64,000 nt of DNA from Albidovulum litorale. Its GTDB lineage: Bacteria > Pseudomonadota > Alphaproteobacteria > Rhodobacterales > Rhodobacteraceae. How positions within the stretch are numbered: the stretch's first letter is position 1; each line of letters starts with the position of its first letter. The notes below the pieces were generated by a model. The model saw nothing but the letters and a program-made list of their open reading frames with translations. It did no database searches and had not been told where the DNA came from. The stretch spans positions 310,001 through 374,000 of the forward strand of contig NZ_JAOWKZ010000002.1 of the NCBI RefSeq assembly GCF_025751495.1. Direction: 5' to 3'. The position numbers and the translations under genes are program-made. Below are positions 48,874-63,373 of this stretch, piece by piece.

Positions 48874-48910
48874 TGCTGCGGTGCGGCTCTGAATTTTTTG
48901 CACCGCAGCA
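48874..48910 (+). promoter_or_regulatory. Inverted repeat in the ecm 5-prime region
   Basis: A perfect 11-bp inverted repeat, TGCTGCGGTGC (48874-48884) and GCACCGCAGCA (48900-48910), with a T-run in the 15-base loop. It lies 69 bases before the ecm start and 18 bases after the lectin-like stop. It may be a terminator of that gene or a regulator site of ecm; the T-run in the loop argues against a simple terminator. Confidence 0.5.
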
Positions 48911-48978
48911 TCTGGACGCGCAACATTCTTCCGTCTAGGTTCGCCAACAAGGAATTATGTTGCCGCGAGGTTTTGCCA

Positions 48979-50949
48979 ATGACCGTCCAGAATGAGCGTG
49001 ATCGCCCCTGGCTGTTCCGCACTTATGCGGGCCATTCGACCGCGGAAAAATCGAACGCGCTTTACCGGGCGAACCTCGCCAAGGGCCAGACCGGTCTTTC
49101 GGTCGCCTTCGACCTGCCGACCCAGACGGGCTATGACAGCGACCACGAACTTGCGAAAGGCGAGGTCGGCAAGGTCGGTGTACCGGTCTGCCATCTCGGC
49201 GACATGCGGACCCTGTTCAAGGACATTCCCCTTGAGCAGATGAATACCTCGATGACGATCAACGCGACCGCGCCGTGGCTTCTCGCGCTCTACATCGCCG
49301 TGGCCGAGGAGCAGGGTGCCGATGTGGCAGCGCTACAGGGCACCGTGCAGAACGATCTGGTGAAGGAATACCTCTCGCGCGGCACCTATATCTGCCCGCC
49401 GAAGCCCTCCCTGAAGATGATCACCGATGTCGCGGCCTACACGGCGGAACACCTGCCGAAATGGAACCCGATGAATGTCTGTTCCTACCATCTGCAAGAG
49501 GCGGGTGCCACGCCGGAACAGGAACTCGCCTTTGCCTTGGCCACAGGCATCGCGGTGCTCGACGACCTCAAGGGCAAGGTCCCGGCCGAAGGCTTCCCCG
49601 CCATGGTCGGCCGCATCTCCTTCTTCGTGAACGCGGGCATCCGTTTCGTCACCGAACTTTGCAAGATGCGCGCCTTCACCGAGCTCTGGGACGAAATCTG
49701 CCGCGACCGCTACGGGATCGAAGAAGAGAAATATCGCCGCTTCCGCTATGGCGTGCAGGTGAACTCGCTCGGCCTGACCGAACAGCAGCCCGAAAACAAC
49801 GTCTACCGCATCCTTCTGGAAATGCTCGCGGTGACGCTTTCCAAAAACGCCCGCGCCCGCGCGGTGCAACTGCCCGCCTGGAACGAGGCGCTGGGGCTCC
49901 CCCGCCCCTGGGATCAGCAATGGTCGCTCCGGATGCAGCAGATTCTCGCCTACGAGACCGATCTTCTGGAATATGGCGACCTCTTCGACGGCAACCCGGC
50001 GATCACCGCGAAGGTTGAGGCGTTGAAGGCAGGCGCGCGGGATGAGCTGAAGACGCTCGACGCCATGGGCGGCGCCATCGCGGCGATCGAGTACATGAAG
50101 GGGCGGCTTGTCGAGAGCAACTCCGAACGCCTCGCCCGAATCGAGGCGGGCGAAACCACCGTGGTCGGCGTGAACCGCTGGACGGAGGCCGAGCCCTCGC
50201 CGCTGACCGCAGGCGACGGCTCGATCCTGACCGTCGATCCGGCGGTCGAAGTCGATCAGGTCGCCCGCCTCAACGACTGGCGCGGCAGCCGCGATCAAGC
50301 CGCGGTCGATGCCGCACTCGCCGACCTTCGCGCCGCCGCATCCGTCGGCCAGAATGTCATGCCGGCCTCCGTCGCCTGCGCCAAGGCAGGTGTCACCACC
50401 GGCGAATGGGCGGGCGTGATGCGGCAGGTTCATGGCCAGTATCGCGGCCCGACCGGCGTCTCGAAAAGCCCCTCGAACCGCACCGAAGGGCTCGACGATA
50501 TCCGCGATGCGGTGGATCAGGTCTCCACCCGGCTCGGCCGCCGCCTTTCGTTCCTGATGGGCAAGCCCGGTCTCGACGGCCATTCGAACGGCGCCGAACA
50601 GATCGCCGCCCGCGCCCGCGACTGCGGGATGGAGATCAATTACGAAGGCATCCGTCTGACGCCCTCCGAAATCGTCGCGGCGGCAGGAGAGGCGAAGGCC
50701 CATGTCGTCGGCCTCTCGATCCTGTCGGGCAGCCACCTGCCCCTGATCGCCGAGGTGATGGGGCGGATGCGCGAGGCGGGCCTTGGCCACATCCCCGTCG
50801 TCGTCGGCGGCATCATCCCCGACGAAGACGCCGCAAGGCTGCGCGAAATGGGCGTCGCCCGGGTCTATACGCCCAAGGATTTCGAGTTGAACCGCATCAT
50901 GTTCGACATCGTGGCACTTGCCGAACCCAAAGCCGTCGCGGCCGAGTAA
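48979..50949 (+). CDS. ecm: (2R)-Ethylmalonyl-CoA mutase, coenzyme B12-dependent
   Basis: 656 residues from the ATG at 48979, with GAGG nine bases upstream. The N-terminal barrel shows RPWLFRTYAGHSTAEKSNALYRANLAKGQTGLSVAFDLPTQTGYDSDHEL, typical of methylmalonyl-CoA mutase-like enzymes. The C-terminal B12 domain has DGHSNG (D533, H535, G538, the DxHxxG of base-off/His-on binding), LSGSHLP and GGIIP. It converts ethylmalonyl-CoA to methylsuccinyl-CoA in the ethylmalonyl-CoA pathway. The short one-chain form and the ccr gene nearby favour Ecm over methylmalonyl-CoA mutase. The next gene starts 15 bases later. Confidence 0.93.
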   Translation: MTVQNERDRPWLFRTYAGHSTAEKSNALYRANLAKGQTGLSVAFDLPTQTGYDSDHELAKGEVGKVGVPVCHLGDMRTLFKDIPLEQMNTSMTINATAPWLLALYIAVAEEQGADVAALQGTVQNDLVKEYLSRGTYICPPKPSLKMITDVAAYTAEHLPKWNPMNVCSYHLQEAGATPEQELAFALATGIAVLDDLKGKVPAEGFPAMVGRISFFVNAGIRFVTELCKMRAFTELWDEICRDRYGIEEEKYRRFRYGVQVNSLGLTEQQPENNVYRILLEMLAVTLSKNARARAVQLPAWNEALGLPRPWDQQWSLRMQQILAYETDLLEYGDLFDGNPAITAKVEALKAGARDELKTLDAMGGAIAAIEYMKGRLVESNSERLARIEAGETTVVGVNRWTEAEPSPLTAGDGSILTVDPAVEVDQVARLNDWRGSRDQAAVDAALADLRAAASVGQNVMPASVACAKAGVTTGEWAGVMRQVHGQYRGPTGVSKSPSNRTEGLDDIRDAVDQVSTRLGRRLSFLMGKPGLDGHSNGAEQIAARARDCGMEINYEGIRLTPSEIVAAAGEAKAHVVGLSILSGSHLPLIAEVMGRMREAGLGHIPVVVGGIIPDEDAARLREMGVARVYTPKDFELNRIMFDIVALAEPKAVAAE

Positions 50950-50964
50950 CGAGAGGAACACGCG

Positions 50965-51450
50965 GTGAAGCCCCGGGTATTTGCGGATGCGAATGAACCC
51001 ATTCTGACCGCCTATGAGGAAGAGGTTTCGGGCGAGGCCTATTTCGCCGCGCTTGCCGAACAGCATGACGGCCGCGCCAGCGAAGCGCTGATGCTGATCG
51101 CCGAAATGGAGGTCGTGACCGCGCGCCTGTTCCGGCCCGTGATCGACGCGGCGGGGCTGCATCCGCGCAGCGCCGAAGAGCTTGTGCGCGAAGGGCGCGA
51201 CGACGCCGAAGCGCTTCGCGGCACAAGCTGGACGGAGTTTCTTGCCAGCATGCGGGACGGGTACGACGCCTATGTGACGGAGTTCAAAGGGATCCGCGCC
51301 GCCGTCAAACCCGACTTCCGCCCCCATGCCGACCTTCTGATCGCGCATGAAGTCGCGATCATCGACTTCGCCCGGGCCGAACTGGCAGGCGACGGGAACA
51401 GCCTGTCCTACCTGCACCGCTATCTGGAAGAGGCGCGGTCTTTCGCGTGA
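50965..51450 (+). CDS. Ferritin-like/rubrerythrin-like protein downstream of ecm
   Basis: 161 residues, all helical, with an E-E pair (EEEVSG near residue 19), an IAEMEVV helix (near 50), and LLIAHEVAIIDFARAEL (H and E near 128-129), arranged like diiron ligands in ferritin-like proteins. It starts 15 bases after ecm, so it is probably part of the same transcript. Role unknown; in other Rhodobacteraceae such a gene often follows ecm as I recall. GTG start at 50965 follows GAGAGGAA. Confidence 0.72.
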   Translation: MKPRVFADANEPILTAYEEEVSGEAYFAALAEQHDGRASEALMLIAEMEVVTARLFRPVIDAAGLHPRSAEELVREGRDDAEALRGTSWTEFLASMRDGYDAYVTEFKGIRAAVKPDFRPHADLLIAHEVAIIDFARAELAGDGNSLSYLHRYLEEARSFA

Positions 51451-51547: not shown

Positions 51548-52357
51548 TCACGGGCTTCTTCCTCCGGTCGTCGCCGTCACCTCGTCGGCGGCGGCCCGCA
51601 CCATTTCGCCGATCTCTCCGGTTCGCTCCAGCGGCAGACGGAAGGCCGGGCCCGAAACCGACAGCCCCGCCACCGGCTCGCCATAAGCATTGAAGATCGG
51701 GGCAGCGACGCAGCGCATCCCCTCTGCCCGCTCCTCATCATCCAGCGCATATCCCCGCGCGCGGGTTGCGGCAAGGTCGGCCAGCAGGTCCTCGACCTCG
51801 CCCACGGACCGTTCGGTGAAACGCGGCAAGCCATTCTTTGCAATAGATAAAATTCGCGACTCTGGGTACCAGGCCAGCAAAGCCTTGCCTATACCCGAGA
51901 CATGCATCGGCCCCAGCGTGCCGGGCGGGAAGAAGGCGCGGATCGTCTCATGCGTCTCGACCTGGCTGAGGAACAGGACCTGATCGCGCATCTCGACACC
52001 CAGATTGGCCGTCTCGCCGGTCGCCCGCATCAGCCGGTCCATCACCGGCCGCGCCCGCTCAGCCACCTTGGTCCGGCGCAGAAAGGCCGATCCGACCCGG
52101 AACGCCCCGCCCCCCACATGCCAAAGCTGCCCGAGCTCCTCCATCTCGGCGAAACCATGGGTCTGGAACGTGGTCAGCACCCGGTAAACGGTCGGCGCCG
52201 ACTGCCCCGTCCGGCTGGCCAGTTCCGACAGCGTCAGCCCGCCCGCCTCGCTGACCGCGGTCAGGATCATCAGCGCCCGGTCCAGCGACTGGATCGTATT
52301 GTCGGCCGTCTTGTCATGGAAACTTTTCGGGCGGCCCCGGGGGCGGGATTCGGCCAT
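51548..52357 (-). CDS. bhcR: IclR-family regulator of the beta-hydroxyaspartate cycle
   Basis: 269 residues from the ATG at 52357. A basic N-terminus RPRGRPKSFHDK precedes an IclR winged helix-turn-helix (residues 22-80, SLDRALMILTAVSEAGGLTLSELASRTGQSAPTVYRVLTTFQTHGFAE) and an IclR effector domain (residues 95-265) ending GLSVSGPAFRLPLERTGEIGEMVR. It is read divergently from bhcA over 174 bases, the arrangement reported for the bhc locus of Paracoccus denitrificans, where BhcR binds the promoter and responds to glyoxylate. By analogy it controls the four genes to its right. Confidence 0.88.
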   Translation of the reverse strand: MAESRPRGRPKSFHDKTADNTIQSLDRALMILTAVSEAGGLTLSELASRTGQSAPTVYRVLTTFQTHGFAEMEELGQLWHVGGGAFRVGSAFLRRTKVAERARPVMDRLMRATGETANLGVEMRDQVLFLSQVETHETIRAFFPPGTLGPMHVSGIGKALLAWYPESRILSIAKNGLPRFTERSVGEVEDLLADLAATRARGYALDDEERAEGMRCVAAPIFNAYGEPVAGLSVSGPAFRLPLERTGEIGEMVRAAADEVTATTGGRSP

Positions 52358-52378
52358 TCTGGGCCCTTTCCTTATATG

Positions 52379-52472
52379 GTCGAAAAACGATTTCGACACA
52401 TGAAAAACAAATTTTTCTTATTTTTCAATATGGAAAGTATATTTTTCACATTACGAAAAATATTTTCGAAAA
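52379..52472. promoter_or_regulatory. bhcR-bhcA intergenic operator array (putative BhcR sites and promoters)
   Basis: A strongly AT-rich stretch holds several inverted repeats built from GAAAA and TTTTC: GTCGAAA-AACGA-TTTCGAC (52379-52397), GAAAAA-CAAA-TTTTTC (52402-52417), TTTTTC-AATAT-GGAAA (52421-52436), TTTTTC-ACATTAC-GAAAAA (52442-52460) and TTTTCGAAAA (52463-52472). IclR-type proteins bind such palindromes, so these are the best candidates for BhcR binding. Both divergent promoters must lie here. Confidence 0.6.
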
Positions 52473-52531
52473 AATTGCACTCAGGCATGGCCAGGGTCTA
52501 CGTTTGCCGCATCCCTGCAAAGAGGCCCGCC

Positions 52532-53719
52532 ATGTCCTTCCAGAATCCGGTCTTCATTCCCGGCCCGACCAACATCCCCGAGGCGATCCGCAAGGCTTGC
52601 GACATGCCGACGATCGACCACCGCTCGCCGCTCTTTGGCGAGATGCTGCACCCTGCGCGTGCGAATGTGCGACAGGTGCTGCGGTCGGATTCGGCCGAGA
52701 TCTTCTTCTTCCCCTCCACCGGCACCGGTGGCTGGGAAACCGCTTTGACCAATACGCTCTCGGCGGGCGACAAGGTCCTTGCCGCCCGGAATGGCATGTT
52801 CTCCCACCGCTGGATCGACATGTGCCGCCGCCATGGTCTGGAGGTCGAGGTGGTCGAAACCCCATGGGGCGAGGGCATCCCCGCCGCCCGTTTCGAGGCG
52901 ATCCTGACAGCCGACAAAGGCCATCAAATCAAGGCGGTTCTGGCGACGCATAATGAAACCGCGACCGGCGTCCGCTCTGACATTGCCGCCGTCCGCCGGG
53001 CGATGGACAGCGCCAAGCACCCCGCGATGCTCTTCGTCGATGGCGTGTCCTCCATCGGCTCGATGGAATTCCGCATGGACGACTGGGGCGTCGATATCGC
53101 CGTGACCGGCAGCCAGAAGGGCTTCATGCTGCCCGCAGGCCTCGCCATCCTCGGATTCTCCGCCAAAGCGATGGCGGCGGGCAAATCGGCCACCCTGCCC
53201 CGCACCTTCTTCGACATCCGCGACATGGAGAAAAGCTACGCCGCGAACGGCTATCCCTATACGCCCGCTGTCGGCCTTCTGAACGGGTTGAAGCTGGCCA
53301 GCGACATGCTTCTGGCTGAAGGGCTCGACAATGTCTTCGCCCGCCACCATCGCATCGCCGAAGGCGTGCGCCGGGCCGTCGATGCCTGGGGTCTGAAACT
53401 GTGCGCCGCCTCGCCTGACCTCTGGTCCGACACGGTCAGCGCGATCCGCACACCGGACGGCTTCAACGCCACCGATATCGTGACGCGGGCCGCCAGGGAA
53501 TATGGTGTCGCCTTCGGCACCGGTCTGGGCGAGGTCGCGGGCAAGGTGTTCCGCATCGGGCATCTCGGTTCGATGACCGATGTGATGGCCCTTTCGGGCA
53601 TCGCGGCGGCCGAAATGGTCATGGCCGATCTGGGCCTGCCGATCCGCCTCGGCTCTGGTGTCGCCGCCGCGCAGGACTGGTACCGCCACGGCGCACCCGC
53701 GAAAAAGGCCGCTGCATGA
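52532..53719 (+). CDS. bhcA: L-aspartate:glyoxylate aminotransferase (BHAC)
   Basis: 395 residues, class V PLP aminotransferase. The N-terminal FIPGPTNIPEAIRKAC, the ATHNETATGV segment, D170 in MLFVDGVSSIG and K196 in VTGSQKGFMLP (PLP Schiff base) are as in serine-glyoxylate aminotransferase relatives. In the BHAC it makes glycine and oxaloacetate from glyoxylate and aspartate. That role, rather than serine-glyoxylate transamination, follows from its place before bhcBCD. The start has AAAGAGG upstream; the stop overlaps bhcB by four bases (ATGA). Confidence 0.92.
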   Translation: MSFQNPVFIPGPTNIPEAIRKACDMPTIDHRSPLFGEMLHPARANVRQVLRSDSAEIFFFPSTGTGGWETALTNTLSAGDKVLAARNGMFSHRWIDMCRRHGLEVEVVETPWGEGIPAARFEAILTADKGHQIKAVLATHNETATGVRSDIAAVRRAMDSAKHPAMLFVDGVSSIGSMEFRMDDWGVDIAVTGSQKGFMLPAGLAILGFSAKAMAAGKSATLPRTFFDIRDMEKSYAANGYPYTPAVGLLNGLKLASDMLLAEGLDNVFARHHRIAEGVRRAVDAWGLKLCAASPDLWSDTVSAIRTPDGFNATDIVTRAAREYGVAFGTGLGEVAGKVFRIGHLGSMTDVMALSGIAAAEMVMADLGLPIRLGSGVAAAQDWYRHGAPAKKAAA

Positions 53720-54684
53720 AGGACTTGGACATGTATATCCCGACCTATCAGGACATGCTGGATGCCCATGAACGCATCAAGCCGCATATCCGCCGCACGC
53801 CGGTCCGGACCTCGGACTACCTGAACGAGCTGGCAGGCTGCCAACTCTTCTTCAAATGCGAGAACTTTCAGGAGCCGGGGGCCTTCAAGGTGCGGGGCGC
53901 GACCAACGCGGTCTTTGGCCTTTCCGACGAACAGGCCAAGGCCGGGGTGGCAACCCATTCATCCGGCAACCACGCCTCCTGCCTTTCCTATGCCGCCATG
54001 CTGCGCGGCATTCCCTGCAACGTGGTGATGCCGCGCACCGCGCCGCAGGCCAAGAAGGACACGGTGCGCCGCTATGGCGGGCGGATCACCGAGTGCGAAC
54101 CCTCGACCTCCTCGCGCGAGGAGACTTTCGCCAAGGTGCAGGCCGAGACCGGGGGCGATTTCGTCCATCCCTACAACGATCCGCGCGTGATTGCCGGTCA
54201 GGGAACCTGTTCGAAGGAACTGATCGAGCAGACCGACGGGCTCGACATGGTCGTCGCCCCCATCGGCGGTGGCGGCATGATCTCGGGCACCTGCCTGACG
54301 CTCTCGACGCTCGCGCCCGAGACGAAGGTGATCGCCGCCGAGCCGGAGCAGGCCGATGACGCCTATCGCAGCTTCAAGGCCGGTCACATCATCGCCGATG
54401 ACGCGCCGAAGACCGTGGCCGACGGGCTTCTGGTGCCGCTCAAGGACCTGACCTGGCACTTCGTGAAGACCCATGTCGCCGACATCTTCACCGCGTCCGA
54501 CCCCGAGATCATCGAGGCGATGAAGCTGACATGGAAGCATCTCAGGGTGGTGATGGAGCCGTCCTCGGCAGTGCCGCTCGCCATCATCCTGAAGAATAAG
54601 GATTATTTCAAAGGCAAGCGCGTCGGGGTGATCATCACCGGCGGCAATGTCGATCTGGACAAACTGCCCTGGATGCAGGGCTGA
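53716..54684 (+). CDS. bhcB: beta-Hydroxyaspartate dehydratase (BHAC)
   Basis: 322 residues, a fold-type II PLP dehydratase of the threonine/serine dehydratase family. K58 in PGAFKVRGA binds PLP, and SGNH (83-86) and PIGGGGM hold the phosphate and ring. In the BHAC it turns erythro-beta-hydroxyaspartate into iminosuccinate. Serine racemase/threonine dehydratase share the fold, so the specific call comes from the bhcA and bhcC neighbours. Translation is coupled to bhcA by ATGA; bhcC begins ten bases after its stop. Confidence 0.9.
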   Translation: MKDLDMYIPTYQDMLDAHERIKPHIRRTPVRTSDYLNELAGCQLFFKCENFQEPGAFKVRGATNAVFGLSDEQAKAGVATHSSGNHASCLSYAAMLRGIPCNVVMPRTAPQAKKDTVRRYGGRITECEPSTSSREETFAKVQAETGGDFVHPYNDPRVIAGQGTCSKELIEQTDGLDMVVAPIGGGGMISGTCLTLSTLAPETKVIAAEPEQADDAYRSFKAGHIIADDAPKTVADGLLVPLKDLTWHFVKTHVADIFTASDPEIIEAMKLTWKHLRVVMEPSSAVPLAIILKNKDYFKGKRVGVIITGGNVDLDKLPWMQG

Positions 54685-54694
54685 GGAGAACAAG

Positions 54695-55858
54695 ATGAAC
54701 GCTCAGGACCGTTACGCCAATTTCGAAGTCGGCTATGACATCCCCGCCAAGCCGGGCATGGATGAGGCCGATATCCAGACCCCCTGCCTGATCCTCGATC
54801 TCGATGCGCTGGAACGCAATGTGAAGAAGATGGGCGACTATGCCAAGGCCCACGGCATGCGCCACCGCAGCCATGGCAAGATGCACAAGTCGGTCGATGT
54901 GCAGAAGCTGCAGGAAAGCCTTGGCGGCGCGATCGGCGTCTGCTGTCAGAAGGTCTCGGAGGCCGAAGTCTTTGTCCGGGGCGGCATCAAGGATGTGCTC
55001 GTCTCCAATCAGGTGCGCGATCCGGCCAAGATCGACCGGCTGGCGCGGCTGCCAAAACTCGGGAGCCGGATCATCGTCTGTGTCGACGATCTGGACAACG
55101 TGGCCGACCTGTCGGCGGCAGCTCAGAAACATGGCACCGAACTGGAGGTCTTTATCGAGATCGACTGTGGCGCGGGGCGCTGCGGCGTGACAACGACGCA
55201 GGATGTGGTCGCCATCGCCAAGGCGGTCGATGCAGCTCCGGGGCTGAAGTTCACCGGCATTCAGGCCTATCAGGGCGCGATGCAGCACATGGACAAATAC
55301 GAGGACCGCAAGGCCAAGCTCGATACCGCCATCGCCATGGTCAAGGACGCGGTACAGGGGCTGAAGGCCAACGGGCTGGAACCGGAGCTTGTGTCCGGCG
55401 GCGGCACGGGCAGCTATTATTTTGAGTCGAATTCCGGCGTTTACAACGAGTTGCAATGCGGGTCCTACGCCTTCATGGATGCCGATTACGGTCGCATCCT
55501 CGACAAGGATGGCAAGCGCATTGATCAGGGCGAATGGGAAAACGCGCTCTTCATCCTGACGAGCGTGATGAGCCATGCCAAGGCCGACAAGGCCATTGTG
55601 GATGCGGGTCTCAAGGCGCAGTCGGTCGATAGCGGCCTGCCCTTCGTCTATGGCCGGGATGACGTGAAATACATCAAATGCTCGGATGAACATGGTGTGG
55701 TTGAGGACCCGAATGGGGCCCTGAAGGTCAATGACAAGCTGAAACTGGTGCCTGGCCATTGCGACCCGACCTGCAATGTCCACGACTGGTATGTGGGCGT
55801 ACGGAACGGCAAGGTCGAAACCGTCTGGCCGGTCTCGGCCCGTGGCAAGGCCTATTGA
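54695..55858 (+). CDS. bhcC: beta-Hydroxyaspartate aldolase (BHAC)
   Basis: 387 residues, PLP-dependent fold-type III (alanine racemase N-terminal barrel; D-threonine aldolase group). RHRSHGKMHKS gives K62 as the PLP lysine in the RxHxKxHK motif, and a metal-binding C-terminus PGHCDPTCNVHDW follows the D-threonine aldolase pattern (H and Cys/Asp). It condenses glyoxylate and glycine to beta-hydroxyaspartate. The start follows GAGGAGAAC. A hairpin lies after its stop. Confidence 0.92.
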   Translation: MNAQDRYANFEVGYDIPAKPGMDEADIQTPCLILDLDALERNVKKMGDYAKAHGMRHRSHGKMHKSVDVQKLQESLGGAIGVCCQKVSEAEVFVRGGIKDVLVSNQVRDPAKIDRLARLPKLGSRIIVCVDDLDNVADLSAAAQKHGTELEVFIEIDCGAGRCGVTTTQDVVAIAKAVDAAPGLKFTGIQAYQGAMQHMDKYEDRKAKLDTAIAMVKDAVQGLKANGLEPELVSGGGTGSYYFESNSGVYNELQCGSYAFMDADYGRILDKDGKRIDQGEWENALFILTSVMSHAKADKAIVDAGLKAQSVDSGLPFVYGRDDVKYIKCSDEHGVVEDPNGALKVNDKLKLVPGHCDPTCNVHDWYVGVRNGKVETVWPVSARGKAY

Positions 55859-55878
55859 GAAAACCTCCCTGAGACTGT

Positions 55879-55907
55879 GGGCCGGGTACGCCCGGCCCTC
55901 TTTTGTT
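55879..55907 (+). terminator. Terminator-like hairpin between bhcC and bhcD
   Basis: GGGCCGGG (55879-55886) pairs with CCCGGCCC (55891-55898), loop TACG, then TCTTTTGTT. This is a good intrinsic terminator, 20 bases after bhcC and 29 bases before bhcD, and may reduce bhcD expression relative to bhcABC. Confidence 0.8.
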
Positions 55908-55935
55908 ACGACACTCTCTGACTGAAAGGTGCGCC

Positions 55936-56895
55936 ATGCTCATCGTCCCCGAGGCCCTGATCGCCGGGCTCGTCACCGCCGAAGACGCCTTTGGCGCAAT
56001 CGAAGCCTGCTTCGCCGCCATGGCGCGGGACGAGGCCTATAACTTCCCGGTCATCCGCGAGGCGCTTGGTGAAGGGCGGCAATACGGGTTCAAGTCGGGC
56101 CTTGACCGCGCGGGCGGCGTGATGGGGGTCAAGGCCGGGGGCTATTTCCCCGGCAATGCCGCCAAAGGCATGATCAACCACCAATCCTCGGTCTTCCTCT
56201 TCAATCCCGAAACCGGGCGGCCGACAGCGATGGTCGGCGGCAACCTTCTGACCGCTTTGCGCACCGCCGCCGCCTCGGCCATCTCCATCGACCGGCTAGC
56301 GCGGAAGGATGCGAAGGTGCTGGGCATGGTCGGCGCCGGGCATCAGGCCCAGTTCCAGCTTCGCGCCGCCGCCAAGGTGCGGGAGTTCGAGAAGGTCATC
56401 GCCTGGAACTACCACCCCGACATGCTGCCGAAACTCGGTGAGGTCACCGCCGAACTCGGCCTGCCTTTCGAGGCCGTGCCTCTGGACCGGATGGTGGAGG
56501 CCGACGTGATCGTCACCATCACCTCCTCCCCCGCTGCATCCCTCATGTCGGCCCATGTCAGCCCGGGCACGCATCTGGCCTGCATGGGAACCGATACGAT
56601 CGGCAAGCAGGAGGTAGAACCCGCGCTCCTCGCCCGCGCGCGCGTCTTCACCGACGAGGTCGCCCAATCCGTCACCATCGGCGAGGCGCAACATGCCGTG
56701 GCCGCCGGGCTGATCCGGGCAGAGGACATCACCCCCATCGGCGCGGTTATCGCCGGTCTGGCCGAGGGGCGGCAGTCGGACGACCAGATCACACTCTTCG
56801 ACGGCACCGGCGTCGGCCTCCAGGACCTCGCCGTCGCAAGCACAGCCGTCCGGCTCGCCGAAGAGAGAGGCCTTGCCATCAAGGTCGAGGTCTGA
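55936..56895 (+). CDS. bhcD: Iminosuccinate reductase (BHAC)
   Basis: 319 residues, ornithine cyclodeaminase/mu-crystallin family with an NAD(P)H fold: GMVGAGHQAQFQLRAA at 130-145, VKAGGYFPGN near 65 and a C-terminal LFDGTGVGLQDLA. In the BHAC it reduces iminosuccinate to aspartate. The start at 55936 has AAAGGTG upstream. It is 77 bases downstream of bhcC, behind the hairpin. Its assignment as BhcD depends on the neighbours, since ornithine cyclodeaminase and alanine-dehydrogenase-like relatives share the fold. Confidence 0.9.
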   Translation: MLIVPEALIAGLVTAEDAFGAIEACFAAMARDEAYNFPVIREALGEGRQYGFKSGLDRAGGVMGVKAGGYFPGNAAKGMINHQSSVFLFNPETGRPTAMVGGNLLTALRTAAASAISIDRLARKDAKVLGMVGAGHQAQFQLRAAAKVREFEKVIAWNYHPDMLPKLGEVTAELGLPFEAVPLDRMVEADVIVTITSSPAASLMSAHVSPGTHLACMGTDTIGKQEVEPALLARARVFTDEVAQSVTIGEAQHAVAAGLIRAEDITPIGAVIAGLAEGRQSDDQITLFDGTGVGLQDLAVASTAVRLAEERGLAIKVEV

Positions 56896-56993: not shown

Positions 56994-57980
56994 ATGACGG
57001 TTCGGGTGGCAATCAACGGCTTTGGCCGGATCGGGCGGTCGGTGCTGCGCGCGGCCCTGTCCGACCCGGCCCATGCCGATATCGACATCATAGCGGTGAA
57101 CGATATCGCGAAGCCGGAAATGGCGGCCTATCTCTTTGAATATGACAGCACCTTCGGCCCATGGGCGGGTGAGGTGCGGCTGTCGGACGGGGCGCTGACG
57201 GTCAACGGGCGTCATATCCGGCTGACCGGCGCCCGCGACCTGTCGACACTCGACCTGTCCGGCATCGATATCGTCATGGAATGCACCGGCCTCGGCGGCG
57301 AACGCTCCTTCGCCGAGGCAGGGCTCAGGGCCGGTGCCGGGCGGGTGCTGGTTTCCGGGCCCTCGAAAACGGCGGATTTCACGCTCGTGATCGGCGCGAA
57401 CGAGGAGCGTTTGTCCCCCGATCACCGCATTGTCTCGAACGCGTCCTGCACCACCAATGCGCTCGCGCCCCTTGCCCGGCTGATCGAGCGGCAATGGGGT
57501 GTGGAAACCGGTTGGATGACGACGATCCACTGCTACACTGGCAGCCAGCCCACGGTAGATGCACCGGGGGCCGAGTTCGCCCGGAGCCGCGCGGCGGCTT
57601 TGTCGATGGTGCCGACGACAACGTCTGCCCAGCGGCTCCTCGATGTGGTCCTGCCCGAAATCGCGGGTCGGATCGAGGGCGCGGCGGTCCGGGTGCCGGT
57701 CGCCTCTGTCTCGGCGGTCGATCTTTCGGTGATGACGCGGGCAAAACCGGACCGCGCCGCCGTGAATGCCGCGCTGCAAGACGCGGGCGGGGTGATCGGC
57801 TGCACCGAAAAGCCGCTCGTCTCGTCCGACCTGCGCGCCCGGCCCGAAAGCATCGTCATGGCCCTGCCCGAAACCCATGTGACGGCGGGCGGGCTGATCC
57901 GGGTCTTCGGCTGGTACGACAATGAATGGGGCTTTTCCAACCGCATGCTCGACGCCGCGCGGCTGATGGTCAGCCCTTAA
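56994..57980 (+). CDS. Type I glyceraldehyde-3-phosphate dehydrogenase (or erythrose-4-phosphate dehydrogenase)
   Basis: 328 residues. Rossmann site INGFGRIGRSVLRA, the active site SNASCTTNALAPL (catalytic Cys), TIHCYTGSQPTVD and WYDNEWGFSNRM are GAPDH-type. NDIAKPEMAAYLFEYDSTFGP follows the second strand (AVND); D here favours NAD. Epd (erythrose-4-phosphate dehydrogenase) belongs to the same family; I cannot exclude it. It is downstream of bhcD by 98 bases and in the same direction, and could join C2 assimilation to gluconeogenesis. Confidence 0.8.
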   Translation: MTVRVAINGFGRIGRSVLRAALSDPAHADIDIIAVNDIAKPEMAAYLFEYDSTFGPWAGEVRLSDGALTVNGRHIRLTGARDLSTLDLSGIDIVMECTGLGGERSFAEAGLRAGAGRVLVSGPSKTADFTLVIGANEERLSPDHRIVSNASCTTNALAPLARLIERQWGVETGWMTTIHCYTGSQPTVDAPGAEFARSRAAALSMVPTTTSAQRLLDVVLPEIAGRIEGAAVRVPVASVSAVDLSVMTRAKPDRAAVNAALQDAGGVIGCTEKPLVSSDLRARPESIVMALPETHVTAGGLIRVFGWYDNEWGFSNRMLDAARLMVSP

Positions 57981-58657: not shown

Positions 58658-60004
58658 TCACTCGTCGATCGTCTCGGGCAGGATCAGGTTCAGCACCACC
58701 GCGATGATCGCGGTTGGCAGAAGGCCCGAGGTCAGAAGAATCTGCGCCGTTTTCGGCAGGTGCTGCAACGCGCCGGGTTCAAGCTGCAACCCGAACCCGA
58801 TCGAGAGCGCAATGGCAAAGATCACCATGTTGCGGCGGTTCCATGTCACGTCGGAGAGCATGTTGACCCCCGCCGCCGCGACCATGCCGAACATCACGAT
58901 GACGCCGCCGCCAAGTACGTTGATCGGCACGGTCTGGATCACTGCCCCGATCTTCGGGATCAGCCCGCAGACGATGAGGAAGAGCGCGCCGATGGTGACG
59001 ACATGGCGGCTCATCAATCCGGTCATAGCGATCAGGCCGACATTCTGGCTGAAGGAGGTGTTGGGCAATCCGCCAAAGACTCCCGCCACCGCCGTTCCAA
59101 GACCATCGGCAAAGGTCGCGCCTGCGATTTCCTTATCCGTCGCCTCACGCCCCGCACCACCCTTGGTGATGCCCGACGTGTCGCCCACGGTCTCAATGGC
59201 CGAAACGACGGCCATCAGGCACATGCCGATAATGATCGCGCCATTGATCTCGAACCCCCATTTGAAGGGCAGGGGCGGGGCGAACAGTGCAGCGCCGCCG
59301 ATCCGGCCAAAATTCACCTGCCCCATCATCGCCGCAACGATATAGCCCGCGATGATGCCGATCAGGACAGCGGCCACGGCCATGAAGCCGCGCGTGAAGA
59401 ACTTCAGTGCCAAGGTTACCGCGATGACGACCAGAGCGGGGAACCACATCGCGAGGGAACCGTATTCCGGCTTGCCGATCAGCGGCACACCGCCGGCCGC
59501 GTACTGAATGCCGACCTTGATCAGCGCGAGCCCGATCATCAGGACGATAAGCCCGGTCACCAATGGCGGCAGCGCGTAACGAATGCGGCCGATAACGAAG
59601 CCGAGGCAGAAATGGAAGCAGCCGCCGATGACAACCCCGGTCATCAACCCGGCGAGCCCAGCTGTGCCAAGCCCGGCAACGGCAGGGATCATGATCGGCA
59701 CGAAGGCAAAGCTTGTACCCTGCACAATCGGCAGCCTTGCGCCCACCGGTCCCATGCCGATCGTCTGAAAAAGCGTGGCGATACCGGCAAACAGCATCGA
59801 CATCTGGATCATGTAGAGCATTGGCGTCAGATCGTCCGAGCCAAAGCCCACCCCGGCCGCGCCGGCGACGATGATCGCGGGCGTGACGTTCGAGACGAAC
59901 ATCGCCAGCACATGCTGAATGCCCAGCGGCACCGCCTTCGCCAGGGGCGGCGTATAGTCGGGGTCGCGGAGTTGCTCCGCCGTTCCGATAGAAGCATCGG
60001 TCAT
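58658..60004 (-). CDS. NCS2-family nucleobase permease (uracil/xanthine/urate type)
   Basis: 448 residues with about 12-14 hydrophobic helices. The NCS2 signature is seen in QHVLAMFVSNVTPAIIVAGAAGVG, GTSFAFVPIMIPAVAGLG, and in SAIETVGDTSGITKGGAGREATDKEIAGATFADGLGTAVAGVFGGLPNTSFSQNVGLIAMTG. The proton- or sodium-coupled transporter probably takes up xanthine or urate, as it lies at the end of the ureide operon. Start at 60004 has GGAGGGAG upstream. Confidence 0.92.
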   Translation of the reverse strand: MTDASIGTAEQLRDPDYTPPLAKAVPLGIQHVLAMFVSNVTPAIIVAGAAGVGFGSDDLTPMLYMIQMSMLFAGIATLFQTIGMGPVGARLPIVQGTSFAFVPIMIPAVAGLGTAGLAGLMTGVVIGGCFHFCLGFVIGRIRYALPPLVTGLIVLMIGLALIKVGIQYAAGGVPLIGKPEYGSLAMWFPALVVIAVTLALKFFTRGFMAVAAVLIGIIAGYIVAAMMGQVNFGRIGGAALFAPPLPFKWGFEINGAIIIGMCLMAVVSAIETVGDTSGITKGGAGREATDKEIAGATFADGLGTAVAGVFGGLPNTSFSQNVGLIAMTGLMSRHVVTIGALFLIVCGLIPKIGAVIQTVPINVLGGGVIVMFGMVAAAGVNMLSDVTWNRRNMVIFAIALSIGFGLQLEPGALQHLPKTAQILLTSGLLPTAIIAVVLNLILPETIDE

Positions 60005-60055
60005 GGCTCTCTCCCTCCTTTTCGCGCGTTTCGGACCGTTGACCGGCCTTCGTCA

Positions 60056-60547
60056 TCAATTGGACGCCACGAGGAAGGGCGTCGGGAACCAGTGTTCATG
60101 AAGATTGGGTGTGTCGCCGATTCGGTCGATCACCGCGAAAAGTCCGGGGGCGTGAAGCGGCGTCAGCACACCATGCCAGGTATTGCGCAGGAGGTTGATC
60201 CCCTGTCCCGGCTGGGTCAGAAAGGCGCGCGGGCGGCCCGGTACGCCGCCCTCGTCTTCAGCGACGACCACAAGAAAGGGGTCCATCGACATCGGGATGA
60301 AAGCCTGCGATCCCTCGGGATGCCGTTCGACCATGTCGAGACGGTAGGGCAGCGCGCGCGGTTCGGCCCTGAAGATCGAGATCCCCGCCCGTCCCGCAGG
60401 ACCGAAATCCATACGTGCCCGGTCGTGATAGCGCCCGCAGAGTCCCTGATTGATGATCCGGTCCGGATCGCCCGACGAGTCCAAAACATCGCCGAACGGG
60501 GCGAAGGCGGTTGCCGTCAGTTTTTCGGTCAGGATCGTCTCGGTCAT
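60056..60547 (-). CDS. allA: Ureidoglycolate lyase
   Basis: 163 residues from the ATG at 60547 with AGGAAACC upstream. The cupin-like ureidoglycolate lyase family is recognised by TAFAPFGDVLD, the DPFLVVVAEDEGGVPGRPRAFLTQPGQGINLLRNTWHGVLTPLHAPGLFAVIDRIGDTPNLHEHWF stretch with its H and E. It splits ureidoglycolate to glyoxylate and urea. The ORF continues 65 codons upstream through the dispersed repeat, which is not coding. Confidence 0.93.
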   Translation of the reverse strand: MTETILTEKLTATAFAPFGDVLDSSGDPDRIINQGLCGRYHDRARMDFGPAGRAGISIFRAEPRALPYRLDMVERHPEGSQAFIPMSMDPFLVVVAEDEGGVPGRPRAFLTQPGQGINLLRNTWHGVLTPLHAPGLFAVIDRIGDTPNLHEHWFPTPFLVASN

Positions 60548-60565
60548 CGGTTTCCTTGGCTCAGG

Positions 60566-60613
60566 CCGGGGGCGCTGCCCCCGGACCCCCGGAGTATTTC
60601 CGGACAGAAAGTG
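60566..60613 (-). repeat. Dispersed CACTTTCTGTC...ATACTC repeat with G/C hairpin (copy 3)
   Basis: The repeat motif (60586-60613) and an 8-bp G/C hairpin with a GCT loop (60566-60584) lie in the gap between allE and allA. The layout matches copies 1 and 2, with the G/C hairpin next to the motif. Confidence 0.7.
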
Positions 60614-60618
60614 AGGGA

Positions 60619-61455
60619 TCAGCGCCCGAACGCACCGGGACCCCTGAGCTTGGCGTGGCGGTTGACGTCCTTGTAAAGAAGGTAGCGAAAGGGGCCGGGC
60701 CCCGCAGCATAGCAGGCCTGCGGGCAATAGGCGCGGAGCCACATGAAGTCGCCCGCCTCGACCTCGACCCAGTCGCGGTTGAGCCTGTAGACCGCCTTGC
60801 CCTCTAAAACATACAGCCCGTGTTCCATGACATGGGTTTCCTCGAACGGGATCACGCCGCCCGGCTGGAAGGTGACGATATTGACATGCATGTCATGGGC
60901 GATGTCGTCCGGGTCGGCGAAACGGGTCGTGGCCCAGCGCCCGCCTGTGTCCGGCATGGCCACCGGCTTCACGTCCTTGTCCGAGGTCACGAAGGCCTTG
61001 GGCGCGGCAATGCCCGGCGCGTATTCATAGAGCTTGCGGACCCAGTGAAACCGCGCCGGATGGTCGGTACCGTTATGCAGCTTCCAGTCGCAGCCGGGCG
61101 GGATATAGGCGTAGCCGCCGGGACCGAGGTCGTGCCAGGTGCCATCCAGCGACAGCCGGACCTCGCCATTGGTGACGAAGATCACGCCTTGGGCGACCGG
61201 ATCGGGTTCGGGCAAGTCCGAGCCGCCGCCGGGGCCGACCTCCATCACATACTGGCTGAAGGTTTCAGCAAAGCCTGACATCGGGCGGGCGATGAGCCAG
61301 AGGCGGGTGTTCTTCCAGCCGGGCAAGGCGCTGGTGACAATGTCGGAAAAGCATCCCTTGGGGATCACGCAATAGGCCTCGGTAAAGACCGCGCGGCCGG
61401 TCATGAGTTGCGTCTGCGGCGGCAGGCCGCCTTCGGGGGCGTAATATTGGCTCAT
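60619..61455 (-). CDS. allE: (S)-Ureidoglycine aminohydrolase, bicupin
   Basis: 278 residues from the ATG at 61455, which overlaps the puuE stop by four bases (ATGA). Two cupin domains: the first with GYAYIPPGCDWKLHNGTDHPARFHWVRK, the second with THVMEHGLYVLEGKAVYRLNRDWVEVEAGDFMWLRAYCPQACYAAGPG, giving the metal-binding His/Glu set. It converts ureidoglycine to ureidoglycolate with ammonia release. Its start is translationally coupled to the allantoinase fusion. Confidence 0.93.
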   Translation of the reverse strand: MSQYYAPEGGLPPQTQLMTGRAVFTEAYCVIPKGCFSDIVTSALPGWKNTRLWLIARPMSGFAETFSQYVMEVGPGGGSDLPEPDPVAQGVIFVTNGEVRLSLDGTWHDLGPGGYAYIPPGCDWKLHNGTDHPARFHWVRKLYEYAPGIAAPKAFVTSDKDVKPVAMPDTGGRWATTRFADPDDIAHDMHVNIVTFQPGGVIPFEETHVMEHGLYVLEGKAVYRLNRDWVEVEAGDFMWLRAYCPQACYAAGPGPFRYLLYKDVNRHAKLRGPGAFGR

Positions 61456-62867
61456 CGTGGCAGCATGTCCTTCAGACGCCATTCGGCGATGCGTTCGACC
61501 TGACGGCAGGCCTCGTCGAACTCGGTTTCATTGTCCTGTTCCAGCCGCCGCCGGAAGGCGTCGAGGATCGAGGCCTTGGTATTGTCGCGAACAGCGATGA
61601 TGAAGGGAAAGCCGTGGCGGGTCGTATAGGCGTTGTTGAGATCGGTGAACTCGTTCCGTTCCGCGTCGGTCAGCGCGTCGAGCCCGACGCTGGCCTGTTC
61701 GGCCGTGGACTCCGCCGTCAGCCGTTTGGCGGCGGCAAGCTTGCCCGCAAGATCGGGATGCGCCGTCAGCACGCCCAGCCGTTCGGCGCGCGAGGCGGAA
61801 CGGAACATGCGGGCGAGCGCGTTGTGCAGGCCCGTCGCCGTGTCATGGGCGGGCCCCAGTTCCAGCGCGAAGGTGCGTTCGGCGATCCAGGGGGAATGTT
61901 CAAAGATGCCGCCGAAGCGGGTGACGAATGTGGATTTATCCATCCGGCTCGGCCGTTCGTACCGCTGGGGCGGATGGGTCGCGGCCCAATGCCGGGCGAT
62001 GTCGATGCGGCGGGGGAACCAGACGCCCTCATGTCCCCTGGCATAGTCGAGGAAGCGTTTCAGCCCGGCGATCTTTCCCGGTCGCCCGATCAGGCGGCAG
62101 TGAAGACCCACCGACATCATCTTGGCTGCCCCCGCCGCGCCTTCGGCATAGAGCGTATCGAAGGCGTCCTTCAGGTACTGGAAAAACTGCTCGCCCGTAA
62201 TATAGCCCGGCGCGGTGGCGAAGCGCATGTCATTGGCCTCAAGCGTGTAGGGAATGACCAACTGATCGCGCTCGCCAACCTCCAGCCAATAGGGCAGGTC
62301 GTCGTCATAGGTGTCGGAAATCCAGTCGAGCCCCTGCTCGGCGGTGAGGCGCACGGTGTTGACCGAACAACGCCCGGTATACCAGCCGGTCGGGCGGCTG
62401 CCCGTCACCTCGGTATGCAGCCGGATCGCCTCGGCGATCTGGCGGCGCTCCTCGTCTTCCGCCATGTCCCGGTGTTCGACCCATTTCAAACCGTGGGACG
62501 CGATCTCCCACCCCGCCGATTTCATCGCCGCGACCTGTTCCGGCGAACGCGCGAGCGCGGTGGCAACACCATAGATCGTCACCGGAATATCCATCCCGGT
62601 GAAAAGCCGATGCAACCGCCAGAACCCGGCCCGCGCGCCGTATTCGTAAATCGATTCCATGTTCCAGTGCCGCTGGCCCTGCCATGGTGCTGCGCCGGGA
62701 ATATCCGACAGGAACGCCTCGGACCCCGCATCACCATGCAGGATGCAGTTCTCGCCGCCCTCCTCATAGTTCAGCACGAGCGAGACGGCGATTTTCGCAC
62801 CGCCGGGCCATTTGGCGTCAGGAGGGGTCGGCCCGTGGCCGGACATATCGCGAGGGTAGCGGTTCAT
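61452..62867 (-). CDS. puuE: Allantoinase (PuuE type) fused to OHCU decarboxylase
   Basis: 471 residues from the ATG at 62867. Residues 1 to about 310 are a polysaccharide-deacetylase-like PuuE allantoinase, with VSLVLNYEEGGENCILHGD, WEIASHGLKWVEHRDMAEDEER and TGWYTGRCSVNT. Residues about 315-471 are an OHCU (2-oxo-4-hydroxy-4-carboxy-5-ureidoimidazoline) decarboxylase, with FVTRFGGIFEHSPWIAER, AHPDLAGKLA and FPFIIAVRDN. One chain therefore makes allantoin (decarboxylase part) and hydrolyses it to allantoate. It is the first gene of the minus-strand ureide operon. Confidence 0.93.
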   Translation of the reverse strand: MNRYPRDMSGHGPTPPDAKWPGGAKIAVSLVLNYEEGGENCILHGDAGSEAFLSDIPGAAPWQGQRHWNMESIYEYGARAGFWRLHRLFTGMDIPVTIYGVATALARSPEQVAAMKSAGWEIASHGLKWVEHRDMAEDEERRQIAEAIRLHTEVTGSRPTGWYTGRCSVNTVRLTAEQGLDWISDTYDDDLPYWLEVGERDQLVIPYTLEANDMRFATAPGYITGEQFFQYLKDAFDTLYAEGAAGAAKMMSVGLHCRLIGRPGKIAGLKRFLDYARGHEGVWFPRRIDIARHWAATHPPQRYERPSRMDKSTFVTRFGGIFEHSPWIAERTFALELGPAHDTATGLHNALARMFRSASRAERLGVLTAHPDLAGKLAAAKRLTAESTAEQASVGLDALTDAERNEFTDLNNAYTTRHGFPFIIAVRDNTKASILDAFRRRLEQDNETEFDEACRQVERIAEWRLKDMLPR

Positions 62868-63013
62868 CTGTCGGATTCCCAAAACTGTCCCGACCCTAGT
62901 CTCGCAGCGGTCGCAACATTATCAATAAAAAACTGAAAGACTTATTTGGCTCTGGCGATGTCGCCTTCCGCGCCGTTCCGCGCCATGATGCGGGCCGCAA
63001 AAGGGAGGGCACC

Positions 63014-63373
63014 ATGGCCGAAGGCTATCTGACCACGCATGTTCTGGACACCGCGCGGGGCGTGCCGGCAAAGGGCATTGCCATCACGCTCTTCCGTCTG
63101 TCTGGCGAGGGGCGCGAGAAGATCGCCGAGGCGGTCACCAACGATGACGGGCGCACCGATAGCCCGATCCTGCCGAAGGACCGCTTTGCCACCGGTCAGT
63201 ACGAGCTGATCTTCCACACCGGTAGCTATCTCGACGCGACCGGCGTGCCCCCCGAATCCCCGCGCTTTCTGACCGATATCCCGATCCGCTTCGGCATTTC
63301 GGACCCCGCGGCGCATTATCATGTGCCGCTTCTGCTCTCGCCCTTCGGCTATTCCACCTACCGGGGAAGCTGA
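63014..63373 (+). CDS. hiuH: 5-Hydroxyisourate hydrolase
   Basis: 119 residues, the transthyretin-like family. The N-terminal [14 protein letters not shown] (H9) and the C-terminal [18 protein letters not shown] with the YRGS end are the HIUase signature; these His and Arg residues form the active site. It hydrolyses 5-hydroxyisourate to OHCU, the substrate of the neighbouring fusion protein. The gene diverges from puuE over about 146 bases, so one control region may drive both. Confidence 0.95.

Follow-up and report, generated by a model that had tools for sequence, protein, structure and literature searches.

The window, that is, the whole 64,000-nucleotide stretch of Albidovulum litorale DNA that was analysed, contains a genuine and complete set of bhcR and bhcABCD, an ordinary example of the already known gene cluster of the beta-hydroxyaspartate cycle (BHAC); a ureide cluster for the conversion of hydroxyisourate to glyoxylate begins 1.8 kb downstream of it (58658-63373). 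The locus very probably represents a BHAC fed by glycolate oxidase and, by gene context, by purine/allantoin breakdown. A sequence-only reading had already proposed the cycle, and its gene set, gene order, strands and outer coordinates (51548-56895) agree with the open reading frames and the sequence:

51548..52357, minus strand: bhcR, IclR-family regulator (NCBIfam NF045644, 393.4 bits, cut-off 350; ligand-site residues by alignment to IclR)
52532..53719, plus strand: bhcA, L-aspartate--glyoxylate aminotransferase (NF045640, 752.7 bits, cut-off 650)
53716..54684, plus strand: bhcB, beta-hydroxyaspartate dehydratase, its start overlapping the bhcA stop as ATGA in the sequence (NF045641, 579.7 bits, cut-off 550)
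54695..55858, plus strand: bhcC, 3-hydroxy-D-aspartate aldolase (NF045642, 783.7 bits, cut-off 690; 324 of 387 residues identical to 6qkb)
55936..56895, plus strand: bhcD, iminosuccinate reductase (NF045643, 544.1 bits, cut-off 500; 209 of 318 aligned residues identical to 6rqa)

The start of bhcR is most likely ATG 52357 (MAESRP..) and not GTG 52399; bhcA and bhcC are placed at ATG 52532 and ATG 54695, and bhcD at ATG 55936 instead of TTG 55903. The starts had been described as coupled, which is true of bhcA and bhcB (a 4-nt ATGA overlap at 53716-53719) and of bhcB and bhcC (a gap of 10 nt) but not of bhcC and bhcD, which lie 77 nt apart with a GC hairpin between them. All five genes are present in 70 of 80 bhcC-bearing relatives in the stretch read around bhcC, and 69 of these 70 (69/80 overall; the exception is locus L033) share the A-B-C-D order with a divergent bhcR, so the arrangement is not due to chance.

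The five proteins were compared with NCBIfam equivalog models, each with its own curated cut-off, and all five score above it (bits/cut-off: BhcR 393/350, BhcA 753/650, BhcB 580/550, BhcC 784/690, BhcD 544/500). The next models listed are far lower: pyridoxamine--pyruvate transaminase for BhcA (178 bits), threo-3-hydroxy-L-aspartate ammonia-lyase for BhcB (349), alanine racemase for BhcC (28) and alanine dehydrogenase for BhcD (198). Among solved structures BhcC scores 755 bits with 6qkb (D-3-hydroxyaspartate aldolase; 83.7% identity) versus 324 for D-threonine aldolase, and BhcD scores 422 bits with 6rqa (iminosuccinate reductase; 65.7% identity) versus 167 for alanine dehydrogenase; we take 6qkb and 6rqa to be the P. 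denitrificans enzymes. The best PDB matches of BhcA and BhcB are serine--glyoxylate aminotransferase (387 bits) and serine racemase (309 bits), with no Bhc structure among the matches listed for either. The RxHxKxHK motif attributed to BhcC is present as RSHGKMHK. The proteins are thus no closer to the older families than to the Bhc proteins, and the sequence comparisons support their assignment as BHAC enzymes and regulator, together with the cycle interpretation; the remark that each protein alone would be misnamed fails, since curated models now give every one of them its name.

The reactions of the cycle and the role of BhcR are established knowledge, worked out in P. denitrificans, whose bhcR-bhcABCD has the same gene content, divergent regulator and protein families as the window locus. 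BhcA would convert glyoxylate to glycine with aspartate spent as the amino donor, and BhcC would form beta-hydroxyaspartate by condensing that glycine with another molecule of glyoxylate; removal of water by BhcB would give iminosuccinate, which BhcD would reduce to aspartate. As BhcD would regenerate the aspartate, two glyoxylate would yield one oxaloacetate net, with zero CO2 loss. BhcR is expected to sense glyoxylate and to switch on bhcA through a palindromic site within the divergent promoter. One source of glyoxylate would be glycolate oxidase, encoded by glcDEF in the same genome on a different contig; the other, by gene context, would be the adjacent purine/allantoin breakdown, in which ureidoglycolate lyase is the last, glyoxylate-releasing enzyme. 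For this locus the enzyme activities, the flux from purines and the regulation are what we infer. Malate synthase G is a possible alternative consumer of glyoxylate, and no isocitrate lyase was found in the genome.

The ureide genes do not figure in the sequence-only reading. The cluster comprises:

58658..60004, minus strand: NCS2-family permease, xanthine-permease-like (TIGR00801, 322.5 bits, passing 291.8; TIGR03173, 411.1, slightly below 414.15)
60056..60547, minus strand: ureidoglycolate lyase, glyoxylate-releasing (NF002952, 291.2 bits, cut-off 260)
60619..61482, minus strand: (S)-ureidoglycine aminohydrolase / bifunctional allantoicase type (NF008373, 528.8/445; NF040771, 491.1/350)
61452..62882, minus strand: allantoinase PuuE fused to OHCU decarboxylase (TIGR03212, 522.1/424.6; TIGR03164, 208.9/96.25)
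63014..63373, plus strand: hydroxyisourate hydrolase (TIGR02962, 134.2/87.45)

The lyase reading frame extends to 60742; the ATG chosen as the lyase start is the one at the onset of the family match. Every enzyme of the route from hydroxyisourate to glyoxylate is thereby above cut-off within the window: hydroxyisourate hydrolase, OHCU decarboxylase, PuuE, the bifunctional allantoicase/ureidoglycine aminohydrolase and ureidoglycolate lyase.

Linkage was surveyed in 148 genomes of the order, 92 of which have bhcC; drafts were included and PuuE was counted only on the bhcC contig, so that a contig break reads as unlinked. PuuE lies within 10 kb of bhcC in 34 of the 92 genomes and 22 of 51 genera, against about 0.5 of 92 genomes by our chance estimate (20 kb in ~4 Mb), while the glycolate oxidase subunit GlcF lies within 30 kb of bhcC in none of 90. 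Of 80 named loci, 46 have one or more of four ureide genes no further than 10 kb from bhc (39 of the 60 with full flanks). Measured between alignment ends, an NCS2 permease comes 8-105 nt after bhcD in 18 loci of Paracoccus; the distance from bhcR to ureidoglycine aminohydrolase is 34-100 nt in 8 loci. In Paracoccus pantotrophus bhcABCD continues into genes for a xanthine permease and for purine oxidation. The genes that lead from xanthine to oxaloacetate are together on a Leisingera plasmid, and annotated bhc-ureide clusters are found on plasmids of Leisingera thetidis and Defluviimonas, the latter cluster including malic enzyme. A second role beyond algal glycolate is suggested, because ureide genes adjoin bhc in many sampled relatives and GlcF in none, and we infer that the cycle here additionally assimilates purine-derived glyoxylate.

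Most of the genomes show no such linkage: in 58 of the 92 the bhcC contig has no PuuE at a distance of 10 kb or less, and in one clade of 8 loci, 5 of which carry the title Ruegeria, none is linked to ureide genes. In Ruegeria pomeroyi DSS-3, Agrobacterium and Aminobacter the ureide queries matched nothing in the stretch covered around bhc; near the Agrobacterium locus there is instead an alpha-hydroxy acid oxidase, which may be a non-GlcDEF kind of glycolate oxidase. Whether in much of the order the BHAC completes purine catabolism as its carbon-assimilating stage, with xanthine, urate and allantoin carried through glyoxylate to oxaloacetate by one physically linked, sometimes plasmid-borne gene set and glycolate as a second, separately encoded source, is evenly balanced. 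A literature search that did not extend to the 2019 founding paper returned no report of bhc-ureide gene linkage.

The ureide genes may instead serve nitrogen supply, with bhc mainly detoxifying the leftover glyoxylate rather than using its carbon. PuuE is nearly universal (145 of 148 genomes, bhc present or absent), which fits this and indicates that ureide breakdown can do without the BHAC; a sink beside its source suits detoxification and assimilation equally. A net C4 product is superfluous for such a sink, however, and the malic enzyme of the Defluviimonas cluster and the GAPDH paralogue found after bhcD in 12/80 relatives suit central carbon use, weak as these two are either way; detoxification is the less probable role, though a serious one. 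It is considered improbable that the BHAC serves glycolate only, as usually described, with the ureide neighbours an accident of catabolic-gene clustering: glcDEF is in the genome, the window ureide genes have no BhcR-type box, and bhcABCD with bhcR is required for growth of P. denitrificans on glycolate (PMC11323563), but the excess of linked PuuE over chance spans 22 genera and several arrangements, and GlcF is within 30 kb in none of 90 genomes. That the four enzymes are a serine-glyoxylate aminotransferase, threonine dehydratase, D-threonine aldolase and ornithine cyclodeaminase forming no cycle is scarcely credible, as the shared families and the older names of the best solved relatives of BhcA and BhcB are set against specific cut-offs passed by every protein, much lower next models and the conserved order with its divergent regulator.

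Assimilation of ureide glyoxylate, as proposed here, has counterparts in the E. coli glycerate pathway and in Pseudomonas aeruginosa, whose glyoxylate pathway is allantoin-inducible. Both end in C3 products, 2-phosphoglycerate with loss of CO2 in E. coli (PMC11323563) and pyruvate in P. aeruginosa (PMC12694930), whereas the BHAC would give a C4 product without CO2 loss; glyoxylate carboligase is not above cut-off in any of the 148 genomes, the present one included, with the E. coli control positive. If bhc keeps company with purine breakdown and not with glycolate oxidase, marine bhc transcripts and proteins may report dissolved purines besides glycolate, and such bacteria could retain purine carbon with no CO2 loss at the glyoxylate step; according to PMC11323563, the BHAC dominates glycolate use among Alpha- and Gammaproteobacteria of environmental relevance, in particular marine ones.

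The bhcR-bhcA spacer contains three palindromic elements:

52381..52395, no strand: bhcR-side imperfect palindrome CGAAAAACGATTTCG, one mismatch to YGAAAANNNTTTTCR
52401..52417, no strand: middle box TGAAAAACAAATTTTTC, score 10/12
52454..52468, no strand: predicted BhcR operator adjoining bhcA, CGAAAAATATTTTCG, followed by an A-tract (palindrome scan)

Of 63 bhcR-bhcA spacers, 61 have a box scoring at least 9/12 that starts 70-95 nt before bhcA, versus 215 of 3150 shuffled spacers, and 58 have one of at least 10/12 there, versus 22 of 3150; strong palindromes number 32 just upstream of bhcA and 3 anywhere else in 1.43 Mb. The element upstream of bhcA is predicted to be a conserved, operator-like BhcR site, and it agrees with the predicted site in the Fig. 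1 legend of PMC11323563, a comparison by description and not by letters. A sigma-70 scan of the spacer gave no promoter-like site. Of the 9 ligand-site residues that PMC11323563 gives for P. denitrificans BhcR (IclR numbering: T143, A146, S154, M220, G160, I161, D212, S239, S241), 8 are conserved in BhcR of the window, as read by eye in the alignment to IclR, and Gly replaces Ser154. In E. coli AllR controls both the allantoin and the glyoxylate operons (PMC11323563). Co-regulation of the ureide genes by BhcR has no support in the window, where the palindrome scan found no BhcR-type box at these genes; elsewhere just three candidates arise, one of the 3 strong outside sites 253 nt before PuuE (L024) and two weaker palindromes (10/12), of which one precedes a urate oxidase reading frame (L126) and the other a gene for a urea channel (L131). 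On these counts, strong palindromes of the BhcR type appear not to single out ureide genes.

Two further features flank bhcD:

55879..55898, plus strand: 8-bp GC stem-loop followed by TCTTTTGTT in the bhcC-bhcD spacer, terminator-like, on its own not significant (z -1.58)
56994..57980, plus strand: gapX, divergent GAPDH paralogue, within 400 nt after bhcD on the same strand in 12/80 relatives

The hairpin is matched by 12 of 200 shuffles that fold equally well, and the region has 6 terminator-like sites versus 4.5 expected. Among 73 bhcC-bhcD spacers, 25 are shorter than 40 nt and the other 48 were tested for folding; 26 of the 48 fold with z < -2 and 40 have a perfect stem of at least 6 pairs (27 expected from shuffles). 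A conserved terminator was rejected, as a T-rich tail follows only 13 of those 40 stems and the window copy is not significant. The 77-nt spacer with its hairpin contrasts with the Paracoccus-titled loci, where 18 of the 20 that give a spacer have one of 0 nt. No specific similarity was found for gapX as an erythrose-4-phosphate dehydrogenase for PLP supply.

On the other side of bhcR, ccr (45232-46524) lies ~5 kb away and a methylmalonyl-CoA-mutase-family gene, probably ethylmalonyl-CoA mutase (48898-50949, plus strand), 0.6 kb away; a minus-strand reading frame at 49333-51417 matched nothing and was rejected as the mutase, being a shadow of the plus-strand gene. The ethylmalonyl-CoA pathway is not regarded as a general partner of bhc, because neither gene was matched in any of the 80 other bhc loci (60 with full 10-kb flanks).

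The window bhc genes are followed by the GAPDH paralogue and the ureide cluster, in which they differ from the P. denitrificans locus as known, P. denitrificans itself not being among the records compared. Similar loci occur in Frigidibacter (L003, L004) and in Defluviimonas salinarum (L015), where BhcC is 89-94% identical, gapX follows bhcD and ureide genes are found within 10 kb; in both Frigidibacter loci the ureide genes are upstream of bhcR, whereas in the window they lie downstream.

The beta-hydroxyaspartate cycle (BHAC) locus lies at 51548-56895 and, as the sequence-only reading had claimed, comprises five genes; the IclR-type gene is on the minus strand, the others are on the plus strand. 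The genes bhcA and bhcB overlap by 4 bases; gaps of 10 and 77 bases separate bhcB from bhcC and bhcC from bhcD. The features are as follows.

52357, minus strand, likely ATG start of bhcR (IclR-type)
52454-52468, predicted BhcR palindrome; additional boxes at 52381, 52401 and 52432
52532, plus strand, likely ATG start of bhcA
53716, plus strand, likely ATG start of bhcB
54695, plus strand, likely ATG start of bhcC
55936, plus strand, likely ATG start of bhcD

All five Bhc proteins reach their specific NCBIfam equivalog cut-offs. The closest solved structure to BhcC is the D-3-hydroxyaspartate aldolase 6qkb (324 of 387 residues identical, 83.7%), and that to BhcD is 6rqa, an iminosuccinate reductase (identical at 209 of 318 aligned residues, 65.7%); because the structure matches of BhcA and BhcB include no Bhc structure, with serine--glyoxylate aminotransferase and serine racemases on top, these two names rest on family models and context. 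Aligned to IclR, BhcR matches the P. denitrificans protein at 8 of the 9 ligand-site positions tabulated in PMC11323563. As cut-offs, nearest structures and regulator residues agree, the earlier assignment of the locus as bhcR divergent from bhcABCD is supported at the sequence level; the locus is an ordinary example of a kind already described, the BHAC gene cluster.

The bhcR-bhcA spacer was compared in 63 loci, the window and 62 of 80 relatives; in the other 18 a gene is missing or cut off, the genes are not divergent, or the alignment starts far from the gene start. A consensus-like palindrome, TGAAAA-N2to5-TTTTCA, mostly followed by an A-tract, begins 70-95 nt before bhcA. At 9 or more of 12 matches it occurs there in 61 of 63 spacers (exceptions L061 and L064) and in 215 of 3150 mononucleotide shuffles. 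Raising the threshold to 10 matches leaves 58 of 63 spacers and 22 of 3150 shuffles. Strong sites (at least 11 of 12, spacer 3) number 32 just upstream of bhcA versus 3 elsewhere in 1.43 Mb, counted over loci of 15 kb or more. The mBio 2024 study (PMC11323563) reports a potential palindrome ahead of the bhcA -35 region and discusses a second site near bhcR; the conserved array fits this model, and its boxes are putative BhcR binding sites.

Downstream of bhcD the window continues with a putative purine breakdown row, in this order.

56994-57980, GAPDH paralogue, a third and divergent copy, after bhcD
182-aa ORF without family match, listed between the GAPDH paralogue and the NCS2 permease
58658-60004, NCS2 permease, passing the superfamily cut-off and missing the xanthine-permease cut-off by 3 bits
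ureidoglycolate lyase, downstream of the permease, over curated cut-off
(S)-ureidoglycine aminohydrolase, bifunctional allantoicase type, over curated cut-off
allantoinase-OHCU decarboxylase fusion (PuuE-UraD), after the aminohydrolase, over curated cut-off
63014-63373, hydroxyisourate hydrolase, over curated cut-off

Jointly, the ureide genes would encode a route from hydroxyisourate to glyoxylate adjoining a glyoxylate-consuming cycle. The four were queried (tblastn, E 1e-15) in the 10-kb flanks of the best 80 of at least 578 named bhcC loci, a set that favours close relatives. One or more of them occur in 46 of these best 80, and in 39 of the 60 with full flanks; in 15 of the 46 linked loci of this set the sole ureide gene found is hydroxyisourate hydrolase. 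The arrangement varies: ureide genes are downstream and convergent in the window, L015, Leisingera L023 and several Ruegeria, and upstream of bhcR in L002, L003, L004 and L017. Also among the best 80 of at least 578, 18 loci titled Paracoccus have an NCS2 permease 8-105 nt past bhcD (17 of these permeases only about 34% identical to that of the window), and an aminohydrolase lies 34-100 nt from the bhcR end in 8. On a quick BhcA+B+C tree of 58 rows (the window plus 57 fully flanked loci that have bhcA, bhcB and bhcC; 40 linked), the linkage label changes 8 times versus 15.8 for shuffled labels; most loci of Paracoccus and of the window's clade are linked, and an eight-locus clade, five titled Ruegeria, is wholly unlinked.

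An even draw of 148 genomes, at least 90% complete, was taken from the window's order, the named relatives being Rhodobacterales. BhcC is found in 92 (E up to 1e-120), and PuuE lies within 10 kb of bhcC on the same contig in at least 34 of these, from at least 22 of 51 genera, counted by genus as well since members of a genus are not independent samples; within 30 kb the figure is at least 39 of 92. These are lower bounds, as some second PuuE copies are uncounted; about half a genome is expected by chance within 10 kb (an estimate, 20 kb in about 4 Mb). GlcF lies within 30 kb of bhcC in none of the 90 bhcC genomes possessing GlcF. The bhc genes are recurrently coupled to purine catabolism and distant from GlcDEF-type glycolate oxidase genes, a point open to test. 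No report of the linkage was found in the open PMC literature, and it may be in print in the 2019 Nature paper or subscription journals. The available part of PMC11323563 notes that purines and allantoin also give rise to glyoxylate, with no mention found there of bhc linkage to purine or allantoin genes, nor was any found in the accessible parts of PMC11166783, PMC11698098, PMC12599240, PMC7574528 and PMC12694930.

PuuE is present in at least 145 of the 148 genomes, so purine breakdown is common and the BHAC an addition in 92. In G116, a genome of the same genus without bhcC, the genes for hydroxyisourate hydrolase, PuuE, aminohydrolase, lyase and the GAPDH paralogue are neighbours; bhc was therefore either gained or lost next to an existing ureide cluster. 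Among alternative sinks for glyoxylate, glyoxylate carboligase exceeds the cut-off in none of the 148 genomes, E. coli being positive as a control. The window's own genome has malate synthase G, crotonyl-CoA carboxylase/reductase and no isocitrate lyase match; of its glcDEF, GlcE and GlcF are over the cut-off, and GlcD, from the same gene row, is under it. According to PMC7574528, a Rhodobacteraceae isolate with glycolate oxidase and without the aldolase gene could use glycolate as an energy source only, which fits the BHAC as the assimilating step.

Linkage is present in 3 of 6 plasmid records examined (H2, H8, H14, H24, H27, H30) among 119 with a bhcC match. On Paracoccus pantotrophus pPAN3 (L126), an unannotated stretch named through family scans, the genes after bhcABCD in the same orientation encode xanthine permease, 8-oxoguanine deaminase, hydroxyisourate hydrolase and a urate-oxidase-domain protein; next come an exporter-family gene and xdhABC, and a LysR gene lies on the opposite strand. 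On Leisingera thetidis pBMJM1_3 (L133; public record annotation) the order is modABC, bifunctional allantoicase/ureidoglycine aminohydrolase, bhcRABCD, AmiS/UreI transporter, NCS2 permease, ureidoglycolate lyase, puuE, uraH, LysR, puuD, a hypothetical gene, LysR and xdhABC. A Defluviimonas plasmid (L131) carries aminohydrolase, bhcRABCD, NCS1 permease, malic enzyme, NCS2 permease and AmiS/UreI transporter, with ureidoglycolate lyase about 12.6 kb past bhcD. Counter-examples, in which no ureide query matches near bhc, are Ruegeria pomeroyi DSS-3 (14 kb on either side) and the Agrobacterium and Aminobacter plasmids (12 kb); in the Agrobacterium stretch, subunits of the xanthine dehydrogenase family are encoded 6-11 kb past bhcD, and the gene for an alpha-hydroxy acid oxidase lies about 1 kb beyond bhcR. 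With bhcC on 119 plasmid records, 21 predicted conjugative and one from Rhizorhabdus wittichii at 89% identity, the bhc module looks mobile.

Several loci are atypical. L025, an 11-kb contig titled Spirulina subsalsa, has bhcB and bhcC at 87% identity and no bhcA, bhcD or bhcR match; it is possibly contamination from an associated alphaproteobacterium. Chelativorans multitrophicus (L022; an EDTA degrader), Mesorhizobium sp. Root157 (L049) and Mesorhizobium sediminum (L081) have bhcB and bhcC, with no bhcA or bhcR match in about 20 kb; glyoxylate is also a product of EDTA breakdown. In Rhodobacteraceae bacterium KLH11 there are two bhc loci, L031 and L032, whose bhcC-bhcD spacers are identical; L031 lacks bhcA and bhcR matches.

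The GAPDH paralogue is 45% identical to the other two copies in its genome and belongs to a 16-row clade (support 100/100; the tool flags long branches) separate from the other copies of 17 genomes and its own; it adjoins ureide genes with no bhc alongside in G116 and in another sampled genome, G014, and is possibly gluconeogenic. Between bhcC and bhcD, a GC hairpin with a T-rich tail (55879-55898) could set BhcD level or mRNA stability; stem-loops occur here in many relatives with a long spacer, and the spacer is absent from 18 of 20 Paracoccus loci. Crotonyl-CoA carboxylase/reductase (45232-46524) and a probable ethylmalonyl-CoA mutase (48898-50949) are close to bhcR in the window, with no match near bhc in any of the 80 other loci. 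The tRNA-Ala(agc) called by ARAGORN at 59855-59951, within the permease gene, is probably a false positive.
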